Part shown: positions 6,902 to 43,107 of the stretch, one piece after another
How the letters are laid out: every line of letters begins with the position of its first letter
Numbering within the stretch: position 1 is the stretch's first letter
Source of the DNA: Chloroflexales bacterium ZM16-3
Lineage (GTDB): Bacteria > Chloroflexota > Chloroflexia > Chloroflexales > Chloroflexaceae
Length of the DNA stretch: 46,448 bases
NCBI GenBank assembly: GCA_004138175.2
Contig: RYFE02000038.1
Location: 1 to 46,448, forward strand
Direction of reading: 5' to 3'
The notes under the pieces: model-generated
What the model was told of the DNA's origin: nothing
Seen by the model: the letters and a program-made list of their open reading frames with translations, nothing else
Database searches by the model: none
Position numbers and translations under genes: made by a program

Positions 6902-9900
6902 CTAGGGAATGATTTGCGCTCCCTCTTCCCTCACTTTTTTGAGGGCATCCCGTTTCGCGAGGTTGAGTCGGCAGATGTTGGCGTAGGCGCAGAATGAGGG
7001 GCACTCGCCGCTGGGGCTCACGGGGAAGCGGCCGGTGCGGGCACCGGTGATGGCTTTGCCCAGGCTCGTGCGTAGTGATTGCTCGGCATCAGTGCGATTG
7101 GCGGAGGTGAGCGCCTTGCTGCGTCTGCCGCTGCCGAGGGCGAGGTAGCCAGCCTGGGCGACCGGCTGCCCGGGAGCCAGGATCTGCTCGGCGGCCAGTG
7201 TGTAGACGGTGAGCTGGACATCTCGGCCGTTCAGGGTGTCGCCAAGGTTCGGCGGCGTGCTGCCGCTCTTGTAGTCGATCAGGGCCAGGCTGCCGTCGGC
7301 GGCCCGGTCGATGCGGTCGATCCGCCCGATGATCAGGGCTGGGCCAGCGGATGTGTCGATCTGGAGCGGCTGGTGGCCCCGGCCTATGCCGAAGCTTGTC
7401 TCGGTGTCGGTGGGCGTGTACTGTTCCCAGCCGTCGCTAGCGCGCAGGCTGCGGCGGAGGGCGCGGGCAAGGGTGCCGCGCAGGTCGGCCTGCTCCCATT
7501 CCCAGAGCGGCCCCGGCTCGAAGCCGTAGGTCTGCGGCGCGGTGGACAGAACCTCGGCGGCGGCGGCGGCTAGGTCGGCCAGGTAGGCATCCTCATGAGC
7601 CTCGGCGGCGGGCATGTCGCGCGCGGCCCAGCGCCGCCCGGCGCTGGAGAGGATCGCGTGGAGCAGCCGCCCCCGTCCGGCCTGGGCCATGCCCTCCTCG
7701 GGCTCGCCGGGCTGTCGGAGGCCCAGGATGTGGGAGGCGGCGAAGCGGAACGGGCAGATCGTGTAGTCGTTGATCTGGGTGACGCTCCACTGGTGCGCGG
7801 GGCCGAAGCGCTGGCTGAGCTGGGCGATAACCTGCGGGCTGTCGAGGATTCCCTCGTGGGGGCCGTACTCGCCGAAGCCCTCGCGCTCGCGCTCGATCTG
7901 GCAGGCGCGGGCGACGTGGGCGTGGAGCGGGTCGTCTGGATCGGGGGGCTGACCCGGCTTGGCGACCATGAGGGCGATCAGGCGCTCCTGGGGCGATGCG
8001 GCTTCGGCGAGATCGGGCGCGCTGCCTGCTTGGATGCGGTGCTTTGGGATGCTGCCTTTTATGAAGCGACCGAGCAGGTCGCGCAGGTAGGGCGATGGTT
8101 CGAGCGGGTTGCCGCCCTCGTCGAGGCGGGTGTAGCAGAGGGCGAGGCTCTGCTGGGCGCGGGTGACTGCCTCGTAGAAGAGGGTGCGCTCGTCGGCGGG
8201 TGCGTTAGCGGGCAGGGGGACGCCGCGCGCTGCCAGAGTTTCTCGTTCGCGGCGGGTGTAGAAGGCGGGCGCGGGCAGCCGGGCGGGGAACTCGCCCTCG
8301 GCGAGGCCGATCAGAACGACGTGGGGGAAGCAGGCGCTGCGGGCGGCCAGCGCGTCAAGGGCGGCCACGTATCCCTGCTCGGGCGACTGCTGGCCGTAGC
8401 TGGCGGCGCTGATCGTGGCCTGGAGATCAGACAGGAAGGCGCTGTAGCTCTGGGGCGGCTCCTGGAGCATGCGGGATGATTCGGCGAGGTCGGATAGGAC
8501 TCTGCGCAGCCGCTCGGCCTGGGCGGGGGTGAACGGGAGTCGGGAGTCGGGAGTCGGGAGTCGGGAGTCGGGAGTCGGGAGTCGGGAGTCGGGAGTCGGG
8601 AGTCGGGAGTCGCCCCCTGCCTCTGCGCTGTGATCATCGGCGCTGCCAGGGTTGTCGCTCCAGCTTAGAAGTTGCCGTGTCCACTCGACATAACCTGCTG
8701 GCGTGGCGGTGGCGGGCGGGGTGAGCCAGGTGACGAAGGCGGCGAGCAGGGCGAGGAGGGCGGTCGCCTCGGCGGGGGTGATGGCGGGGCCGTCTAGGTC
8801 GTCGTCGGGCGGGGGCGGGTTGTCGGCGAGGCGCTGGAGCAGGGCGCGCAGGCGGTCGAGCCGACCGGCGTAGCCCCCGGCGCGGGTGGCGCGGTCGAGC
8901 AGGCTGGCGGCTATGGTGAAGCTGGGGATGTTCGGCAGGTCGGCACCGACGAGCGATGGGCTGTGCGTGCCGAGGTCGCGCCAGCACTCGACGAGGGCGC
9001 GGCGCGGGTAGCCGGAGCTTGGCAGGCTGAGCAGGGAGAGCAGGGAGACGATGGGCGGGGCCTCGGCGAGGGGCAGCCCGGCGACGATGGCCAGGGGCAG
9101 GCTGTACTCGGCGGCGACCTCGCGGAGCAGCGGCGCGTAGGGCGCGGCGCTGCGGAAGATGACGGCGATGTCCTCGGGGGCGGTGCCTTCGCGCAGCAGG
9201 CGGCGGACATGGCGCAGGGCGGCGCGCACCTCGCGCTCGCGGTCGGGCGCGCTGATGAGCTGGATGGCCCCGCCCGCGTCGGCTGGGGGATGATCGGCGA
9301 GATCGAAGAGGCTGGCCTCGGCGTGGGCGAGGGGCGGCAGCGGGGATGTGGCGCGCGGCAGCTGCTTTAGCTGCGCCTCGGGCAGGGCGGCGCGCAGGGC
9401 GGCCAGGGTAGCGATGAAGCGGCGGTGGGCCGGGCGGGCGTCGGGGCCTCCGGTGAGTGTTATCAGGCTGCGCTCGGCGCGGTCGCAGAGGGCGCGCAGA
9501 AGGTTCATCTGGAGAGGGGTAAACTGGTCGAAGCCGTCGACGATGAGGAGCGCGAGGTCGGCGAGGGGCGGGCTGGCGGACTGGAGGATGTCGATGGCGC
9601 GGGCCATGCGCCCGGCCTCGTCCTCGACGCCGATCCGGATAAGGGCGGCCTGGTAGGCGGCGTAGATCGCGGCGAGGTCGGTGTCATAGCTGCCGACGGA
9701 GGCAGCCCCCAGCGACTCAGGGGCGATCTGGGCGGCCTGGAGATCGTCGATCAGGGCGAGGGTGTCGGCGACGAGCCCGGCCTTGTGGGCCACGGGCGCG
9801 AGCTGCGGGATGGCGCCCTCGTCGGCGAGGCGGCGCAGCTCGGCGCGCAGCAGGCGGGCGCGCAAGGTGGGGGTTGCCTGCGGCAGCTCGGCCGCTGCCT

Positions 9901-10117
9901 CTTTCAGGATGATGCTGACGAGGCGGGACGGCTGACACAGCGAGGCGCGGGAAATTCTATCGCGCACCTGAGGGGCCAGCTTATCGCGGTGGAGCCCGCT
10001 GGGAACCAAGAGTATGGCCCGGCCGCGCCGAGGCTCCGCCATCCCCGCAAGGGCGGCTATGGTCTTGCCAGCAGCTGCGGGGGCAAGTAGGATGGTGATG
10101 TCGGGTGCATGGGGCAT
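6902..10117 (-). CDS. AddB/RecB-like ATP-dependent nuclease subunit with PD-(D/E)XK domain
   Basis: A protein of about 1071 residues. The N-terminus carries a P-loop-like A-P-A-A-A-G-K-T, in which the usual first glycine is alanine, followed by inactive-helicase-like segments (L-L-I-V-D-G-F-D-Q-F as Walker-B-like). The C-terminus is a RecB-type nuclease: I-G-R-I-D-R-I-D-R, then L-I-D-Y-K-S-G (catalytic D and D-x-K). Cysteines at Y-T-I-C-P-F-R-F and C-P-S-F-C-A-Y-A-N-I-C match the 4Fe-4S staple of AddB. Expected role: double-strand end resection with an AddA helicase-nuclease, which is not in the window. The ATG at 10117 is preferred because a TATAAT (10164-10169) lies inside the longer frame starting at 10180. 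A run of DSRLPTP heptapeptides interrupts the middle (see 8535-8611). Confidence 0.8.
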   Translation of the reverse strand: MPHAPDITILLAPAAAGKTIAALAGMAEPRRGRAILLVPSGLHRDKLAPQVRDRISRASLCQPSRLVSIILKEAAAELPQATPTLRARLLRAELRRLADEGAIPQLAPVAHKAGLVADTLALIDDLQAAQIAPESLGAASVGSYDTDLAAIYAAYQAALIRIGVEDEAGRMARAIDILQSASPPLADLALLIVDGFDQFTPLQMNLLRALCDRAERSLITLTGGPDARPAHRRFIATLAALRAALPEAQLKQLPRATSPLPPLAHAEASLFDLADHPPADAGGAIQLISAPDREREVRAALRHVRRLLREGTAPEDIAVIFRSAAPYAPLLREVAAEYSLPLAIVAGLPLAEAPPIVSLLSLLSLPSSGYPRRALVECWRDLGTHSPSLVGADLPNIPSFTIAASLLDRATRAGGYAGRLDRLRALLQRLADNPPPPDDDLDGPAITPAEATALLALLAAFVTWLTPPATATPAGYVEWTRQLLSWSDNPGSADDHSAEAGGDSRLPTPDSRLPTPDSRLPTPDSRLPFTPAQAERLRRVLSDLAESSRMLQEPPQSYSAFLSDLQATISAASYGQQSPEQGYVAALDALAARSACFPHVVLIGLAEGEFPARLPAPAFYTRRERETLAARGVPLPANAPADERTLFYEAVTRAQQSLALCYTRLDEGGNPLEPSPYLRDLLGRFIKGSIPKHRIQAGSAPDLAEAASPQERLIALMVAKPGQPPDPDDPLHAHVARACQIEREREGFGEYGPHEGILDSPQVIAQLSQRFGPAHQWSVTQINDYTICPFRFAASHILGLRQPGEPEEGMAQAGRGRLLHAILSSAGRRWAARDMPAAEAHEDAYLADLAAAAAEVLSTAPQTYGFEPGPLWEWEQADLRGTLARALRRSLRASDGWEQYTPTDTETSFGIGRGHQPLQIDTSAGPALIIGRIDRIDRAADGSLALIDYKSGSTPPNLGDTLNGRDVQLTVYTLAAEQILAPGQPVAQAGYLALGSGRRSKALTSANRTDAEQSLRTSLGKAITGARTGRFPVSPSGECPSFCAYANICRLNLAKRDALKKVREEGAQIIP
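8535..8611. repeat. Eleven perfect copies of heptamer GGGAGTC inside the AddB-like gene
   Basis: GGGAGTC is repeated 11 times without error (77 bases). On the coding (minus) strand it reads GACTCCC and gives repeated DSRLPTP between an Ala/Gly-rich linker and P-A-Q-A-E-R-L. Because 7 is not divisible by 3, all three frames of a strand give the same heptapeptide and none contains a stop. It lies in a linker between conserved blocks, so the protein probably tolerates it. Confidence 0.95.
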
Positions 10118-10163
10118 GGGTTTGTGGTAGGCTTTCTTTGTGAGTTGGGTGTTGAGTGTGGTC

Positions 10164-10193
10164 ATTATAGAGGATCTCATAATGTATCGTCAG
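10164..10193 (-). promoter_or_regulatory. Candidate promoter of the AddB-like gene
   Basis: On the minus strand a CTGACG box (10188-10193) stands 18 bases from a perfect TATAAT (10164-10169). A start of transcription a few bases on lies 40-50 bases before ATG 10117. The -35 box is only a partial match to TTGACA. The region overlaps the start of the divergent PIG-L gene. Confidence 0.45.
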
Positions 10194-27316: not shown

Positions 27317-29005
27317 TTGGTTCTTGTGGAATACCAGCCGAATGTCAAAAATATCACGGGTGAGGGCGGACTGATCAGCGCCGTCCGCGCCGACAGTATC
27401 GCCGCCGACCTGGGTATCCAGCCTGGCGACACCCTCGTCGCCGTGGGTGGGCTGCGCCTGCGCGATGTGATCGACTACCGCTTCAGCATCGCCGAGGAGC
27501 GGATCGAGGTGCTGGTGCGCTCATCCGCCGGCATCGAGACGATCTACGAGATCGAGAAGGATCCCGACGAAGATCTGGGCGTGGACTTTGACGAGCCGCT
27601 CTTTGATCGGCTGCGCACCTGCAATAATAAGTGCCCCTTCTGCTTCCTCACCCAGATGCCGCGGGGCTTTCGCAAGACGCTCTACCTGAAGGATGACGAC
27701 TACCGCCTCTCGTTCATCTACAGTAACTTTGTTACCTTCACCAATCTGACCGAGGACGACTGGCAGCGCATCGAGGCGCAGCACCTCTCGCCGATGAACA
27801 TCAGCGTCCACGCCACCGACCCGGCCTGGCGCGCAGTTATGCTTGGCAAGCGCGATGTCCCCGATGTGCGCGAGCAGATCCGCCGCCTCGGCGATATGGG
27901 CGTCTCCGTCCATACCCAGATCGTGGCCTGCCCCGGCGTGAATGATGGCGACGTGCTGCGCCAGAGCATCGCAGACCTGGCCGCGCTCTACCCGGTCGTC
28001 CAGTCGATTGCGGTGGTGCCTGTTGGCCTGACCAAGTACCGCTTCGAGGGCAAAGCCCCCAAGTCTATCCGCGCCGCCATTGAGATCCACGAGACGCCGG
28101 AGTGGATCGACACGAACTGGGAGCGGCAGCCTTTGTGGGATTCAGGAGTCGGGGGGCAGGAGTCGGGAGTCGGGGATCCGATCCCGCTCATCGCATCTCC
28201 ACCTGCTCCCCTGACTCCCGACTCCCGACTCCCGACTCCCGACTCCCGACTCCCGATGACTCCCGACTCCCGACTCCCGACTCCCGACTGCCGACTCCCG
28301 ACTCCCGACTCCCGACTCCCGACTCCCGACTCCCAGCACGACCCGGCCCTCGGCTTCTGCTCGCGCCTGGGCGCGGCTACCGATGTGCCACTGCGCTGCT
28401 ACACCGGCGAGGAGTCGGCCCAGGTGCTCGACCTGATCCTGGGCTACAGCCAGACATACCAGCGCGAGCACGGGCTGAGCCTGGTCTACCCCAGCGATGA
28501 GTTCTACATCCTGGCCGGCCGCGAGACGCCCCCGGCCGACTTCTACGATGATATGCCGCAGTACTCCAACGGCGTCGGCATGGTGCGCGACTTTCTGGAC
28601 GGCTGGGCGAAGGCCAAGCGGCGTCTGCCCGCGCGCATCCCCCACCCGGCCACGGTGGCCCTCGTCTGCGGAACCCTTGTCGGCCCGCTGATGGGGCAGG
28701 TGGCCGCCCGGCTAAACAAGATCGAGGGGCTAGAGGTGCGGGTGCTGCCGGTGGTTAACCAGTTCTTCGGCGACACAGTCACGGTCAGCGGGCTGCTGAC
28801 CGCGCAGGATCTCATCCCTGCCCTGCGAGCGAGCGGCTGCACGCGCGCGATCTTGCCCAGGGTCATGTTCGACTACCAGGGCACGCGGACGATTGATGAC
28901 CAGAGCCCACAGCAGATCGCTGAGGCAGCCGGTGTTGCCGTGGCACTGGCCGGCGACCCGGCCGAGCTCGCACGCTACGTGCGCGCCCTGGGTCATGCCA
29001 GATAA
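27317..29005 (+). CDS. DUF512 family radical SAM protein with N-terminal PDZ-like domain
   Basis: 562 residues. A PDZ-like domain (about 15-75) precedes a radical SAM segment with C102-x3-C106-x2-C109 (T-C-N-N-K-C-P-F-C-F), then the DUF512 domain (Y-P-S-D-E-F-Y-I-L-A-G ... Y-S-N-G-V-G-M-V-R-D-F). The reaction is unknown. The protein is about 100 residues longer than usual because a heptamer-repeat block (roughly residues 275-340) lies between the barrel and the C-terminal domain. The start is TTG 27317 or GTG 27326; neither has a strong ribosome binding site. A TATAAT at 27243-27248 may be its -10 box. Confidence 0.85.
   Translation: MVLVEYQPNVKNITGEGGLISAVRADSIAADLGIQPGDTLVAVGGLRLRDVIDYRFSIAEERIEVLVRSSAGIETIYEIEKDPDEDLGVDFDEPLFDRLRTCNNKCPFCFLTQMPRGFRKTLYLKDDDYRLSFIYSNFVTFTNLTEDDWQRIEAQHLSPMNISVHATDPAWRAVMLGKRDVPDVREQIRRLGDMGVSVHTQIVACPGVNDGDVLRQSIADLAALYPVVQSIAVVPVGLTKYRFEGKAPKSIRAAIEIHETPEWIDTNWERQPLWDSGVGGQESGVGDPIPLIASPPAPLTPDSRLPTPDSRLPMTPDSRLPTPDCRLPTPDSRLPTPDSQHDPALGFCSRLGAATDVPLRCYTGEESAQVLDLILGYSQTYQREHGLSLVYPSDEFYILAGRETPPADFYDDMPQYSNGVGMVRDFLDGWAKAKRRLPARIPHPATVALVCGTLVGPLMGQVAARLNKIEGLEVRVLPVVNQFFGDTVTVSGLLTAQDLIPALRASGCTRAILPRVMFDYQGTRTIDDQSPQQIAEAAGVAVALAGDPAELARYVRALGHAR
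28142..28334. repeat. GACTCCC heptamer array (17 units) with inverted copies, inside the DUF512 gene
   Basis: 28213-28334 holds six perfect GACTCCC units, a GAT, four more, one variant (GACTGCC) and six more. Upstream (about 28142-28174) the inverted unit GGGAGTC occurs three times in degenerate form. The block encodes D-S-R-L-P-T-P repeats and, in the inverted part, E-S-G-V-G. It is the same unit as at 8535-8611 in an unrelated gene 20 kb away. Confidence 0.95.
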
Positions 29006-29072
29006 ATTGCAGATTGCACATTGCACATTGAGGGGGAGACGATGCAATCAGCCAATCTGCAATCTGCAATCA
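29005..29072. repeat. ATTGCAG-type heptamer repeat with inverted copies between DUF512 and HD-GYP genes
   Basis: AATTGCAGATTGCACATTG (from about 29005) is followed by a short spacer and CAATCTGCAATCTGCAATC (about 29053-29071), built from the 7-base unit CAATCTG and its complement. A related repeat lies inside the hybrid kinase gene at 35984-36045. Confidence 0.75.
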
Positions 29073-33951: not shown

Positions 33952-36900
33952 ATGTTTCCCTCACGTCGACTGCCCCTCGCCCGCCATCTCGCCACCATTC
34001 GCCGCCAGCTCATCATCGGGCTCGGGCTGATCGTTCTGCTGATGCTGATCTCTGCCGTGATCGCCTTCCTCGGACAGCAGGCTGTGACCCGGCAGATTAA
34101 CGACACCCTCCAGGCGGCTGCCGAGGAGCGCGACCTGAGCCTTCAGGTGCAGAATGCCTTCCTGATGGCCCGGCAGAGCGAGGGTGATTTTATCAGCTCC
34201 TGGCGCGTGATCGGCATCGATGACGCCCAGCCGCTTCTGGATGCCAACCGCCAGCATCTGGCCGACGCACGCTCCCGCCTCGACCAGATCGATGCGATGT
34301 ACCTCAATAGCCCAAAGGAGCACGACAGGTCGCTGCGCGAGGCCACGGCCCGCCTGCGCCCGCTCCTCGACAGCTATGAGCAGACATTTCAGGCCACGGT
34401 TGATGGGATCAGCCAGCGCGGGCGGGCCGATGGCCTAGAGAGTGATCTGCGCGCCCGCCTCAACCAGCTCGATGATAGCACGCAGGATCTGCCAGACGCA
34501 TCCGCCCGCATCCTCGTCCTCCAGCTGCGCTCCGACAGCCTATCGTACCTCTCGACCCAGCGCCAGGAGTTCGCTGACACGGTGCGCCTACGACTGAACC
34601 ACCTGGAGAAGCTGCTCGGCGCGAGCCCCGATGCGGAGCAGATCCTCGCCGACTCCGTGCGCTTCCACCAGTCCTTTAGCGACCTGATCACCCTTGATCA
34701 CGAGATCTCTGGCAACATTGCGGTCTTCCACGATCTAACCGGCAAGATCACCGCGATCACAAACCAGATCAGTGACCTGAGCGCCCGAGAGCTGGCCGAG
34801 GCCCGTGACGAGATCGACCAGCTGAATCTGCGCAGCGCCATGAGTATTGTCTTCGTCTCGTTGCTCGCCATCATCAGCGCCGTCCTGGCTGCGCTCGTGC
34901 TCACCAAGCGGATTGCCGTCCCGCTGCACAACCTGACGGAGGCCGCCGAGCGCCTCGGCCAGGGTCGGCTCGATGAGCGCATCCCCGACGGTGGACGCGA
35001 CGAGTTTGCCACCCTGGCCCGCGCCTTCAACCGGATGGCCGACCAGATCCGCAGCCTGATCGGCTCGCTTGAGGAGCGCGTCGCCGAGCGCACCGGACGT
35101 CTGGAGCATGCGGCTGCCGAGAACGCTCGGCTGCTCGCGGCCGAGCGTATCCAGTCGCGCCGACAGCAGGCGCTCTTTGAGCTCAGCGCGGCGCTCTCCG
35201 CCCAGCTCACCGAGGATGAGGTCTATACGGAGCTGGCCAAGCATCTGTACGACCCTGGATTCGGCTACGGATCTGTCGCGATCTACACCACTGACGTCGA
35301 TCAGATAGCCCCGAGGCTGCGGGCCAGCCAGGGCGATGTGGAAACCGCAGGAGGTGGCGATCAGGCGATGCCGCTCGTCATCGGGGGGGAGACGTCTGGG
35401 GTGATTCGGGTTCGGGGCGAGCAGGATGCGGGCGGCAACCACAGCGCCCTCGCCGCTGTGGCGAACCAGGCCGCCGCCGCCATCGCTCGCGCCCAGCTCT
35501 ACGAGTCGCTGGAGCGAGCCAGGGAGGTCGCCGAGGGGGCCAACCAGGCCAAGAGCACCTTCCTGGCCAATATGAGCCACGAGCTACGTACCCCCCTGAA
35601 CGCGATCATCGGCTACAGCGAGATGCTCCAGGAGGATCTTAGCGAGAGCGATCACGCCGCTCTCGTGCCCGACATCCAGAAGATCCATGGTGCAGGCCGC
35701 CACCTGCTCGGCCTGATCAACGATATCCTCGATATCTCAAAAATCGAGGCCGGCAAGATGGATCTCTACCTTGAGCAGTTTACCGTCTCCAGCCTGATCG
35801 ACAGCATCATCAGCACGATCGACCCGCTGGTGGCCCGCAACCATAACCGGCTCATCATCGAGCGATCACCCGACCTGGGCGCGATCTCCGCCGACATGAC
35901 CAAGCTGCGCCAGGTGCTGCTCAACCTGCTCTCGAACGCTTGTAAGTTCACCGAGGGCGGAACCGTGACGCTGCGCGTCAACTCGATTGCAGATTACAAA
36001 TTGCAGATTGTAGAATCGGGCTTTGGCGCGGCGCAATCTGCAATTGTGTTTGAGGTAAGCGACACCGGCATCGGCATGAGCGCGGAGCAGATCGCCCGGC
36101 TCTTCCAGCCCTTCAGCCAGGCTGATGTTAGCACCACCCGCAAGTATGGCGGGACTGGCCTGGGCCTGGCGATCAGTCGCCACTTCTGCCGCATGATGGG
36201 TGGCGATATCAGTGCGCGCAGCGAGCTCGGCCACGGAACGACGTTCACCGTCATCCTGCCCACCAACATGCCTATCACCCTGCCTGTCAGCCCACAGCCC
36301 GCCGAGGAGACACACCTGGCCGAGCCTGACTTCGCCGAGCTGACGATGGTGAGCGGCGCGGCCAGCATCCTGATCATCGACGATGACCCCGACGTCCATA
36401 TCATCCTCCAGCGCGCCCTTAGCCAGCGCGGCTGGCAGATCCATTCTGCCAGCGACAGCGCCGAGGGGCTGCGACTGGCCCGCCTGCGCCCCCCCGACCT
36501 CATCCTCCTTGATGTGGTGCTCCCCGGTGTCGATGGCTGGCAGACCCTCGCAACGCTCAAGGGCGACCCCGATCTGATGGATATTCCGGTGATTATGCTC
36601 ACCATGCTCGACGAGCGCGGCCTCGGCTTCGCCATGGGTGCCGCCGATTATCTGACCAAGCCGATCGACACACAGCAGCTGACCGGCCTGCTCCAGCGCT
36701 ACATCGAGCAGAGACAGAATCAGTCGATCCTGATCATCGAGGACGATAACGTCACACGGGCGATGAACCGCCGCCTGCTGGAGCGCGAGGGCTGGACGGT
36801 GTACGAGGCGTCGGACGGCAAGGGAGGGCTTGAGGAGGTGGAGGCCCACCGCCCCGGCCTCATCTTGCTCGATCTGATGATGCCGGAGCTAGATGGGTTT

Positions 36901-37101
36901 GGCTTTGTGGCAACGCTGAGCCAGAACCCCAAGTGGAGCGATATCCCTGTGGTGGTGATTACGGCTAAGGAGCTGACCGCAGAGGAGCGCCAGGAGCTTG
37001 ATACGTACGCCGCCCGTGTGCTGCGCAAGGGCACCTACGGTAAAGAGGCACTGCTGCGCGAGATCCAGCGCCACATGGATCGTCGGGCGGCCCGGCGCTA
37101 G
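33952..37101 (+). CDS. Hybrid sensor histidine kinase with two receiver domains
   Basis: 1049 residues from ATG 33952: TM1 (about 18-42), an extracellular helical sensor (45-290), TM2 (about 298-322), HAMP (322-375), coiled coil, a GAF-like domain (about 395-515), HisKA with H543 ([10 protein letters not shown]), HATPase_c ([22 protein letters not shown]), receiver 1 with D854 and receiver 2 with D974. No DNA-binding domain, so it signals through phosphotransfer or protein contact. An insert of about 20 residues made of ATTGCAG-type repeats lies in the HATPase domain, between the N box and the D-T-G-I-G box. It directly follows the PotD-like lipoprotein. A TTG at 33934 is a less likely start. 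Confidence 0.9.
35984..36045. repeat. ATTGCAG-type repeat with 12-bp inverted arms inside the hybrid kinase HATPase domain
   Basis: GATTGCAGATTACAAATTGCA begins the block; AATTGCAGATTG (35999-36010) is repeated inverted as CAATCTGCAATT (36034-36045). It encodes about 20 extra residues ([20 protein letters not shown]) where related kinases pass directly from a T-L-R-V strand to F-E-V-S-D-T-G. It is A+T-rich against its G+C-rich surroundings. Confidence 0.8.
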
Positions 37102-38844: not shown

Positions 38845-38910
38845 ATAGCCGATAGCAGATCTGCGGATTTGAACTATGAGGCTGCTATCGGCTATCGGCT
38901 ATCGACTATC
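38845..38910. repeat. GGCTATC-type heptamer repeat with inverted copy
   Basis: ATAGCCGATAGCA (38845-38857) and its complement TGCTATCGGCTAT (38883-38895) flank a 25-base spacer. The right side continues as tandem GCTATCG units (38884-38904) and ACTATC. It lies between gpmI and the small membrane protein gene and just reaches the latter's stop codon. Confidence 0.75.
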
Positions 38911-42710: not shown

Positions 42711-42767
42711 GTAGGGACGCAGCGCGCTGCGTCCCTACTGCGTCCCCACTGTGTCCCTACTTCGTCC
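42711..42767. repeat. 28-bp palindrome plus 11-bp tandem repeat upstream of glcD
   Basis: GTAGGGACGCAGCG and its complement form a perfect palindrome (42711-42738). It overlaps a tandem array of 11-base units (CTGCGTCCCTA, CTGCGTCCCCA, CTGTGTCCCTA, then CTTCGTCC; 42727-42767) that enters the last codons of the minus-strand membrane gene. The palindrome probably ends that gene's transcript. Its left half, GTAGGGACGCAGCGCGCT, recurs at 5649-5666. Confidence 0.7.
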
Positions 42768-43107
42768 GCACCCGCCGCTTAAGGTTCGAGGCCGGCCGAC
42801 GGAAGAGCAGCACATCAATAAACCCACGCGGGTAGCTTTGGGCAAAGCGCGGCACGCTGCCAGCGACCGCCCGCCAGATTCCGAGGGCCACCATCGAGAG
42901 CACCAGGGGCGCGAGGGCGATGATCGGGTTGATCGGCTGCCCGCCGAGCGAGGCATAGGCGATATAGGCAAATGCCAGCAAAATCATCATTCCCTGCCCG
43001 ACAAGCAGCAGCAGACGCGACTCGCGCAGGCGCATATAGGCGGCCAGGAAGGCCGAGACATACCAGATCTCAAACAAGATCACTACCAGAGTGAGCGAGA
43101 CAAGCAC
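42757..43107 (-). CDS. Hypothetical membrane protein (116 aa, three TM helices)
   Basis: GTG 43107 is preceded by AAGGAG eight bases upstream. Three hydrophobic helices (about 3-25, 32-54, 60-84) are followed by a basic cytoplasmic tail (R-R-P-A-S-N-L-K-R-R-V-R-T-K). No family is recognised. It lies upstream of glcD-glcE on the same strand but is separated from them by a palindrome, so co-transcription is uncertain. Confidence 0.65.
   Translation of the reverse strand: MLVSLTLVVILFEIWYVSAFLAAYMRLRESRLLLLVGQGMMILLAFAYIAYASLGGQPINPIIALAPLVLSMVALGIWRAVAGSVPRFAQSYPRGFIDVLLFRRPASNLKRRVRTK

Follow-up and report, generated by a model that had tools for sequence, protein, structure and literature searches.

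Paired heptamer arrays in genes and gene gaps of a photosynthetic Chloroflexales bacterium: a GACTCCC hairpin in a DUF512 protein linker and changing repeat units at shared sites

The DUF512 gene and its repeat-bearing linker

We analysed a stretch of 46,448 nt (the window) from the 6.27 Mb genome of the photosynthetic bacterium ZM16-3 (G000) and compared it with the nearest sequenced relative (G004). The nearest named DUF512 orthologue was that of Oscillochloris sp. ZM17-4 (L039), and G004 was treated as this strain, presumably correctly. The following features were identified at and around the DUF512 locus.

27317..29005, + strand: DUF512 host gene encoding a PDZ_6 – Radical_SAM_2 – DUF512 protein (P0001) of 562 aa (ORF list, Pfam, own gene caller; start possibly 27326)
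28137..28174, + strand: left (5') hairpin arm, purine-rich, with degenerate GGGAGTC/AGGAGTC/GGGGGGC units (TRF, inverted-repeat analysis)
28175..28212, + strand: loop between the hairpin arms
28213..28334, + strand: right (3') arm, pyrimidine-rich, (GACTCCC)17 interrupted by a GAT insertion and a single GACTGCC unit (TRF)
29006..29071, no strand assigned: GATTGCA-family heptamer hairpin occupying the intergenic space that follows the DUF512 gene (TRF, inverted repeats; GATTGCA-type repeats also present at the G004 site)

Pfam placed PDZ_6 at residues 20-68, Radical_SAM_2 at 81-231 and DUF512 at 357-543 of P0001, so the heptamer repeat sits between domains; the TIGR03279 match of the protein fell under the family cut-off. 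The original prediction of seventeen GACTCCC units, preceded by inverted copies and lying in frame between the radical SAM and DUF512 parts, was borne out by TRF, inverted-repeat analysis, Pfam and an ORF (27317-29005) with no stop across the repeat. TRF counted 17.0 copies with 93% matches in the right arm, though the run is not pure, being interrupted by the GAT and the GACTGCC unit, and a 7-period array with 70% matches in the left arm. Positions 28136-28175 pair with parts of the main array over at most 39 nt, the longest pairs being 84-87% complementary. Doubled GACTCCC occurred 23 times in the window (overlapping occurrences, both arrays), against 0.00 expected from shuffled sequence.

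The repeat had been thought to add roughly 65 residues, which fits the approximately 64 codons of the span but exceeds the net gain in linker length. Between two conserved motifs the linker measured 71 residues in P0001 and 9-48 in 56 orthologues (56 of 58 were parsed; L073 and L096 were left out), so that it is longer by about 25 residues than in the nearest relative (46) and by about 50 than in orthologues whose linkers are about 20. An AlphaFold2 model of modest quality (mean pLDDT 69, 14-sequence alignment) gave pLDDT below 50 for residues 269-342 and, apart from a short helix at 272-276, neither helix nor strand between 277 and 346. The model points to a disordered linker. The repeat, which is free of stops, is probably tolerated there, and the enzyme probably draws no separate function from it.

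Other repeats within the window

The remaining repeats of the window lie in or near other genes.

6902..10180, - strand: second host gene, an AddB-like helicase/nuclease (P0002; Pfam)
8534..8612, - strand: (GACTCCC)11 array within the AddB-like gene, read on its coding strand (TRF)
35985..36014, + strand: GATTGCA-family array inside gene 33952-37101 (the orthologous G004 site is a GAAGGAT hairpin)
38884..38910, no strand assigned: GCTATCG array (TRF; the orthologous site in G004 showed no detectable heptamer array)

No inverted partner of the AddB-like array was found within 8300-8900. Seventeen other genomes matched in the AddB comparison and 11 of these could be aligned at the array site, none of them with a clear period-7 array; G003 scored 11/14 for period 7 in its best stretch. 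The AddB-like linker of G007 (L218) holds a 9-mer repeat where the window gene has GACTCCC units. Further GATTGCA units were seen at about 36040, also inside gene 33952-37101, and an 11-mer tandem repeat, CTGCGTCCCTA, which is not of the heptamer class, at 42727-42771.

Heptamer arrays are abundant in ZM16-3 and its nearest relative

The ZM16-3 genome contained 268 exact (GACTCCC)3 matches (including overlaps; 116 on one strand and 152 on the other), and none was found in 60 relatives; TRF detected a single array of the GACTCCC family in G004 (L197). GACTCCC has therefore spread or been reborn largely within the lineage. This agrees with the suggestion that the unit recurs in unrelated places and is not restricted to the two genes of the window, though not with the mobility of a defined element (see below). 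GACTCCC arrays were also seen at the ends of four contigs (C57, C73, C80 and C126); arrays may thus interrupt the assembly and be undercounted.

We sampled 1.03 Mb of ZM16-3, comprising stretches around arrays and syntenic gaps, and identified 287 heptamer-repeat elements, many of them hairpins; GACTCCC was the main unit in 88. Counting perfect arrays of at least three copies, the first 928 kb gave 241 of period 7, compared with 29, 11, 13, 8 and 2 of periods 4, 5, 6, 8 and 9, an excess of at least 8-fold in the stretches examined. These 928 kb were chosen around GACTCCC arrays, which inflates that family, and 122 period-7 arrays remained once the GACTCCC and ACTCCTG families were removed. Periods 2 and 3 gave 2292 and 1274 arrays in the same sequence, but three copies there amount to 6-9 nt. 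Further families in ZM16-3 were of the GATTGCA, GGGGGTT, GAATGTT and CGGCTAT types. In 296 kb of G004 there were 75 period-7 arrays and at most seven of any other period.

Hairpin architecture and purine-first polarity

Among 69 neighbouring pairs of GACTCCC arrays no more than 150 bp apart, the order was '-+' in 60, '+-' in one, '++' in four and '--' in four. The excess of '-+' is real, because an inverted pair reads alike from either strand. The purine-rich arm came first in all 86 inverted pairs of ZM16-3 (21 families) and all 25 of G004 (nine families), that is, in 111/111 across the two genomes; ZM16-3 held seven direct pairs besides. This polarity applied in every gene context: inside genes (41), in tandem gaps (48), in convergent (9) and divergent (6) gaps, and at edges (7). 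Ordinary, non-heptamer perfect inverted repeats also lean purine-left (187:81 in ZM16-3 and 70:12 in G004, ties excluded), so the polarity is partly a general trend of hairpins in both genomes. Stretches of ten other genomes yielded 12 inverted pairs, all in G015, G034 and G005, of which 10 were purine-left. The two exceptions, classed by unit composition, were a pair lying between two adjacent hairpins and an 8-mer. Eight Calothrix loci (106 kb) held 15 period-7 arrays, among which a search for inverted pairs found none.

Same sites, different units

The DUF512 linker of G004 carries a hairpin of GGAGGCA/TGCCTCC units at the matching place. Its left arm is in phase with that of the window after a 4-nt gap, and the two units are two substitutions apart. 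Period-7 repeats were present in four of 57 DUF512 linkers (window, L039, L047 and L059), each with a different unit, and the L072 linker has a period-8 repeat. Most orthologues have no heptamer array, but the nearest relative is among those that do. The data accordingly do not support a straightforward recent insertion into a vacant linker and, with the G004 unit two substitutions away, descent with change accounts for the DUF512 linker as well as new birth does.

The comparison was extended to 38 ZM16-3 elements with an orthologous site in G004. Arrays were found in both species at 25 of these sites, nine sharing a common unit and 16 bearing another unit label, and 13 had no array in G004. 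In the reverse direction, 42 G004 elements gave nine common units, 17 other units and 16 sites with no array in ZM16-3. Common units exceeded the permutation expectation (9/25 compared with a mean of 5.0, p 0.02). The 16 differing sites comprised five that were one substitution apart, three at two, four at three, two at four and two that were not comparable (13- or 14-mer calls), whereas random non-identical array pairs fell at one to four substitutions in 4%, 11%, 60% and 24% of cases. From these sequences, approximately half of the differing units look like descent with drift and six look like replacement. For GACTCCC itself, eight sites had a G004 orthologue, with the same family at one, another unit at four and no array at three. 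Orthologous gene gaps were likewise associated between the species (table 13, 10, 11, 63; OR 7.4, p 1.6e-4). Inside genes, 11 of 12 sites agreed between ZM16-3 and G004, eight under other labels, and 12 of 16 agreed in the reverse direction; the 12 elements come from seven genes, five of them sharing one gene and two mapping to a single G004 interval. Uniform density would predict 0.2 in-gene coincidences, a rough yardstick since tolerated positions are not uniform.

These coincidences could have arisen if unrelated heptamer hairpins had appeared independently in two lineages at the few gaps and linkers that tolerate insertion. The scatter of the four repeat-bearing DUF512 linkers across lineages with different units, while most orthologues have none, is what such hot spots would produce, as are the absence of an array at three of eight GACTCCC sites in G004, the occupation of some G004 sites by another type of palindrome, and the six of 14 comparable pairs that are three or four substitutions apart, like random pairs. 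Against this stand the 11/12 in-gene coincidence (with the caveat on tolerated positions just given), the phase of the DUF512 left arms, the excess of common units over permutation and the greater closeness of unequal units than of random pairs. We consider independent gain possible, if rather unlikely. The other palindromes, of TAAGGGCGCAGCAGCG or TAGGGGCGAAGCATTCGCC type, were seen at G004 sites orthologous to heptamer arrays (L189, L191 and L197) and possibly form a REP-like family.

Loops and arms gave some indication of how units change. Of six loop sites picked by eye, two were exact reverse complements between the species, two had the same orientation and the remaining two gave no clear orientation. 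Exact inversion of the loop at two sites implies recombination of the arms or a switch of template. One arm at L134 18282 reads GATTGTT in its three inner units while the partner arm is still TGCAATC, and G004 has mostly GATTGCA in both; at L205 1629, almost every unit is TTGAGTG in one species but TTGAATG in the other. Both cases fit mutation followed by homogenisation. Larger unit changes, such as GATTGCA to GAAGGAT or GACTCCC to GATTGCA, need replacement.

Mobility of the elements

Recurrence of GACTCCC in unrelated genes had been taken to suggest mobility, and one vehicle would be a REPIN-like hairpin moved by a REP-associated (Y1/RAYT) transposase. The arm pair does act as one unit, as seen in the 60 '-+' against one '+-' arrangements, and ZM16-3 has five Y1_Tnp matches, one of them full-length and strong; PF01797 takes in IS200-like proteins as well. 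An all-against-all comparison of masked element interiors and flanks, on the other hand, linked 23 of the 287 elements through 29 matches, of which 18 came from a single gene with repeated modules. At sequence level this suggests that loops are mostly locus-specific. When 42 loops were then compared unmasked and with greater sensitivity, several pairs scored above shuffles. By eye, these were mostly leftover degenerate heptamers or duplicated modules of L134, with the exception of L119 17913-18014 and L170 4389-4505, unlinked GACTCCC hairpins whose loops scored 19 compared with 17 for the best of 20 shuffled sets. Here a hairpin may have been dispersed whole. Arms also vary in unit and length, and no Y1_Tnp match was found in G004 (98% completeness), which is itself rich in arrays. 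A RAYT is hence not required, and a mobile element with a common core is unsupported, given how rarely interiors and flanks are alike between loci. Taken together, movement of a defined element was not sustained, and we hold a REPIN-like origin to be improbable.

Gene context and possible roles

Based on our own gene calls (813 genes, 86% coding), 104 of the 287 elements lay inside genes, 63 across a gene end and 120 in intergenic sequence; among the 88 in which GACTCCC is the main unit, the corresponding figures were 49, 14 and 25. Elements sit where extra DNA is tolerated, in gene gaps and protein linkers. Heptamer units that are stop-free were enriched inside genes (74/185 compared with 13/63, p 0.006), an enrichment only moderate in size, so that tolerance can explain only part of the pattern. 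Many heptamer inserts, several at matching module positions, were found in a single large gene of modular, repetitive make-up (L134 5087-14431).

The two GACTCCC arrays of the window share the same coding orientation, as had been observed, but this does not extend to a rule. Across the examined stretches, the coding strand of 52 in-gene GACTCCC and ACTCCTG elements was net C-rich in 27, G-rich in 22 and equal in three, with both arms present in 29, and we rejected a strand preference on these counts. A terminator role was also rejected, as the orientation of flanking genes matched that of all gaps. A GGG run occurred in 195 of 363 arrays but in just 16 of 45 heptamer families; with 29 families lacking a G-run, the G-quadruplex is unlikely as a common cause and was rejected as a unifying one.

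We accordingly give little credence to selection for structure (G-quadruplexes, terminators or RNA stabilisers) as the origin of the elements: the G3N4 form of GGGAGTC may by analogy permit folding like that of Xanthomonas and Nostoc repeats, which form G4 in vitro according to the available part of PMC4692102, more than half of the arrays do have the GGG run, and a strong RNA hairpin is predicted (z -3.3), yet most families are without that run, convergent gene gaps are not enriched (chi-square p 0.63) and over a third of elements lie within genes.

Relation to known heptamer repeats

The ZM16-3 repeats resemble the cyanobacterial STRR, reportedly the subject of work by Mazel in 1990 and of related studies, as dispersed tandem heptamers; the likeness is one of general form. 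Related heptamer repeats are already known from Xanthomonas, Nostoc and Chloroflexus. The papers cited below were available in part, and what is said of them refers to those parts.

Rehm et al. 2015 (PMC4692102) described G-rich heptamers, GGGAATC in Xanthomonas and GGGGA(C/T)T in Nostoc, that fold into G4 in vitro. As there, the repeats in ZM16-3 are 7-nt G-rich units that are dispersed, lie on both strands and in some cases within genes, and convergent inverted pairs, frequent in Xanthomonas, are found here too ('-+' in 60/69). The unit GGGAGTC, however, is not of the GGGNATC type, having the GGG run without the ATC end. Nor are the GACTCCC elements mostly intergenic as in that type (25/88), their in-gene share of 49/88 comparing with 7-11% in Xanthomonas and about 32% in Nostoc (PMC4692102), and many co-resident families have no G-run, unlike the repeats of both those genera. 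Sites also appear to be kept differently, with 83% of Xcc repeats having a G-rich repeat in the same Xac context (PMC4692102), compared with arrays at 25/38 sites here, 16 of them under another label.

Heptamers also build the P6b stems of the Nostoc trnL intron, where Class I is TDNGATT and Class II NNTGAGT (PMC4476775). The likeness extends to hairpin stems made of heptamers and to one class supplanting another at one site, but P6b is a single intron locus with a structural role, whereas many loci, including protein-coding linkers, are involved here. In the same phylum, Chloroflexus aurantiacus has (GATAGRA)n satellites (PMC6749651), a single heptamer that, like GACTCCC, is scattered genome-wide and species-specific; the pairing, in-gene sites and turnover seen in ZM16-3 are not reported in the available part of that paper. 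The TAACTGA direct repeats of Beggiatoaceae and cyanobacteria are likewise dispersed heptamers with no known mobility mechanism, and PMC4679880 relays an earlier proposal that slippage by 7 nt is set by DNA polymerase contact. They differ from the present repeats in being of a single unit, arranged as direct repeats upstream of starts with one inverted case only (PMC4679880). REPINs are hairpin-forming inverted doublets that disperse through a genome, REP sequences being linked with RAYT (PMC3116915). The inverted-doublet hairpin is shared with ZM16-3, but here the units vary, the relative has no detectable Y1 and element sequence is not conserved between loci, 18/29 interior or flank matches lying within one gene with one alike loop pair besides. 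Tandem repeats across prokaryotes, heptamers included, are tabulated in PMC4060949, and triplex repeats are treated in PMC4666352.

In the literature searched, which held few subscription papers, we found no report of purine-first polarity across families (a minor target of the search), none of genome-wide unit turnover at conserved sites, and no paper joining Oscillochloris with 'tandem repeat'.

Proposed persistence and turnover of hairpin sites

With middling confidence, we favour over a conventional mobile element an explanation in which hairpin sites are long-lived while their units drift, are homogenised and in some cases give way to others, and GACTCCC has spread in a lineage-specific manner. 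It draws directly on the period of seven, the pairing of arms, their polarity, the persistence of sites, the closeness of differing units relative to random pairs, loop inversion and drift within arms. Replication slippage would keep the 7-nt period and make arms uniform, while fold-back or template switching would keep the arms paired. At some sites the unit would be replaced outright, perhaps through copying in trans from another array, and GACTCCC would be the unit that became common in the ZM16-3 lineage. The DUF512 site probably predates the split of the two species, a few substitutions having changed the unit before it spread along the arms. Gains or losses also happen, since 13/38 ZM16-3 sites and 16/42 G004 sites (3/8 for GACTCCC) have no array in the other species.

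Slippage in situ, taken alone, does not account for GACTCCC being the main unit of 88 elements. Copying in trans, proposed for the presence of one unit at many loci, is the weakest and most interesting step. A bolder version is that 7-nt units are copied between unlinked hairpins throughout the genome, the current unit of the lineage replacing the old while site, period and purine-first polarity are kept. We regard such rewriting as doubtful. If true, it would be a bacterial counterpart of the concerted evolution of satellites, one that also edits protein linkers.

Heptamer repeats are known from several bacterial groups without an established mechanism. Kept sites with a changed unit, the purine-first rule and inverted loops place direct constraints on how such repeats originate, and the DUF512 gene illustrates that simple repeats can lengthen protein linkers with the frame intact.
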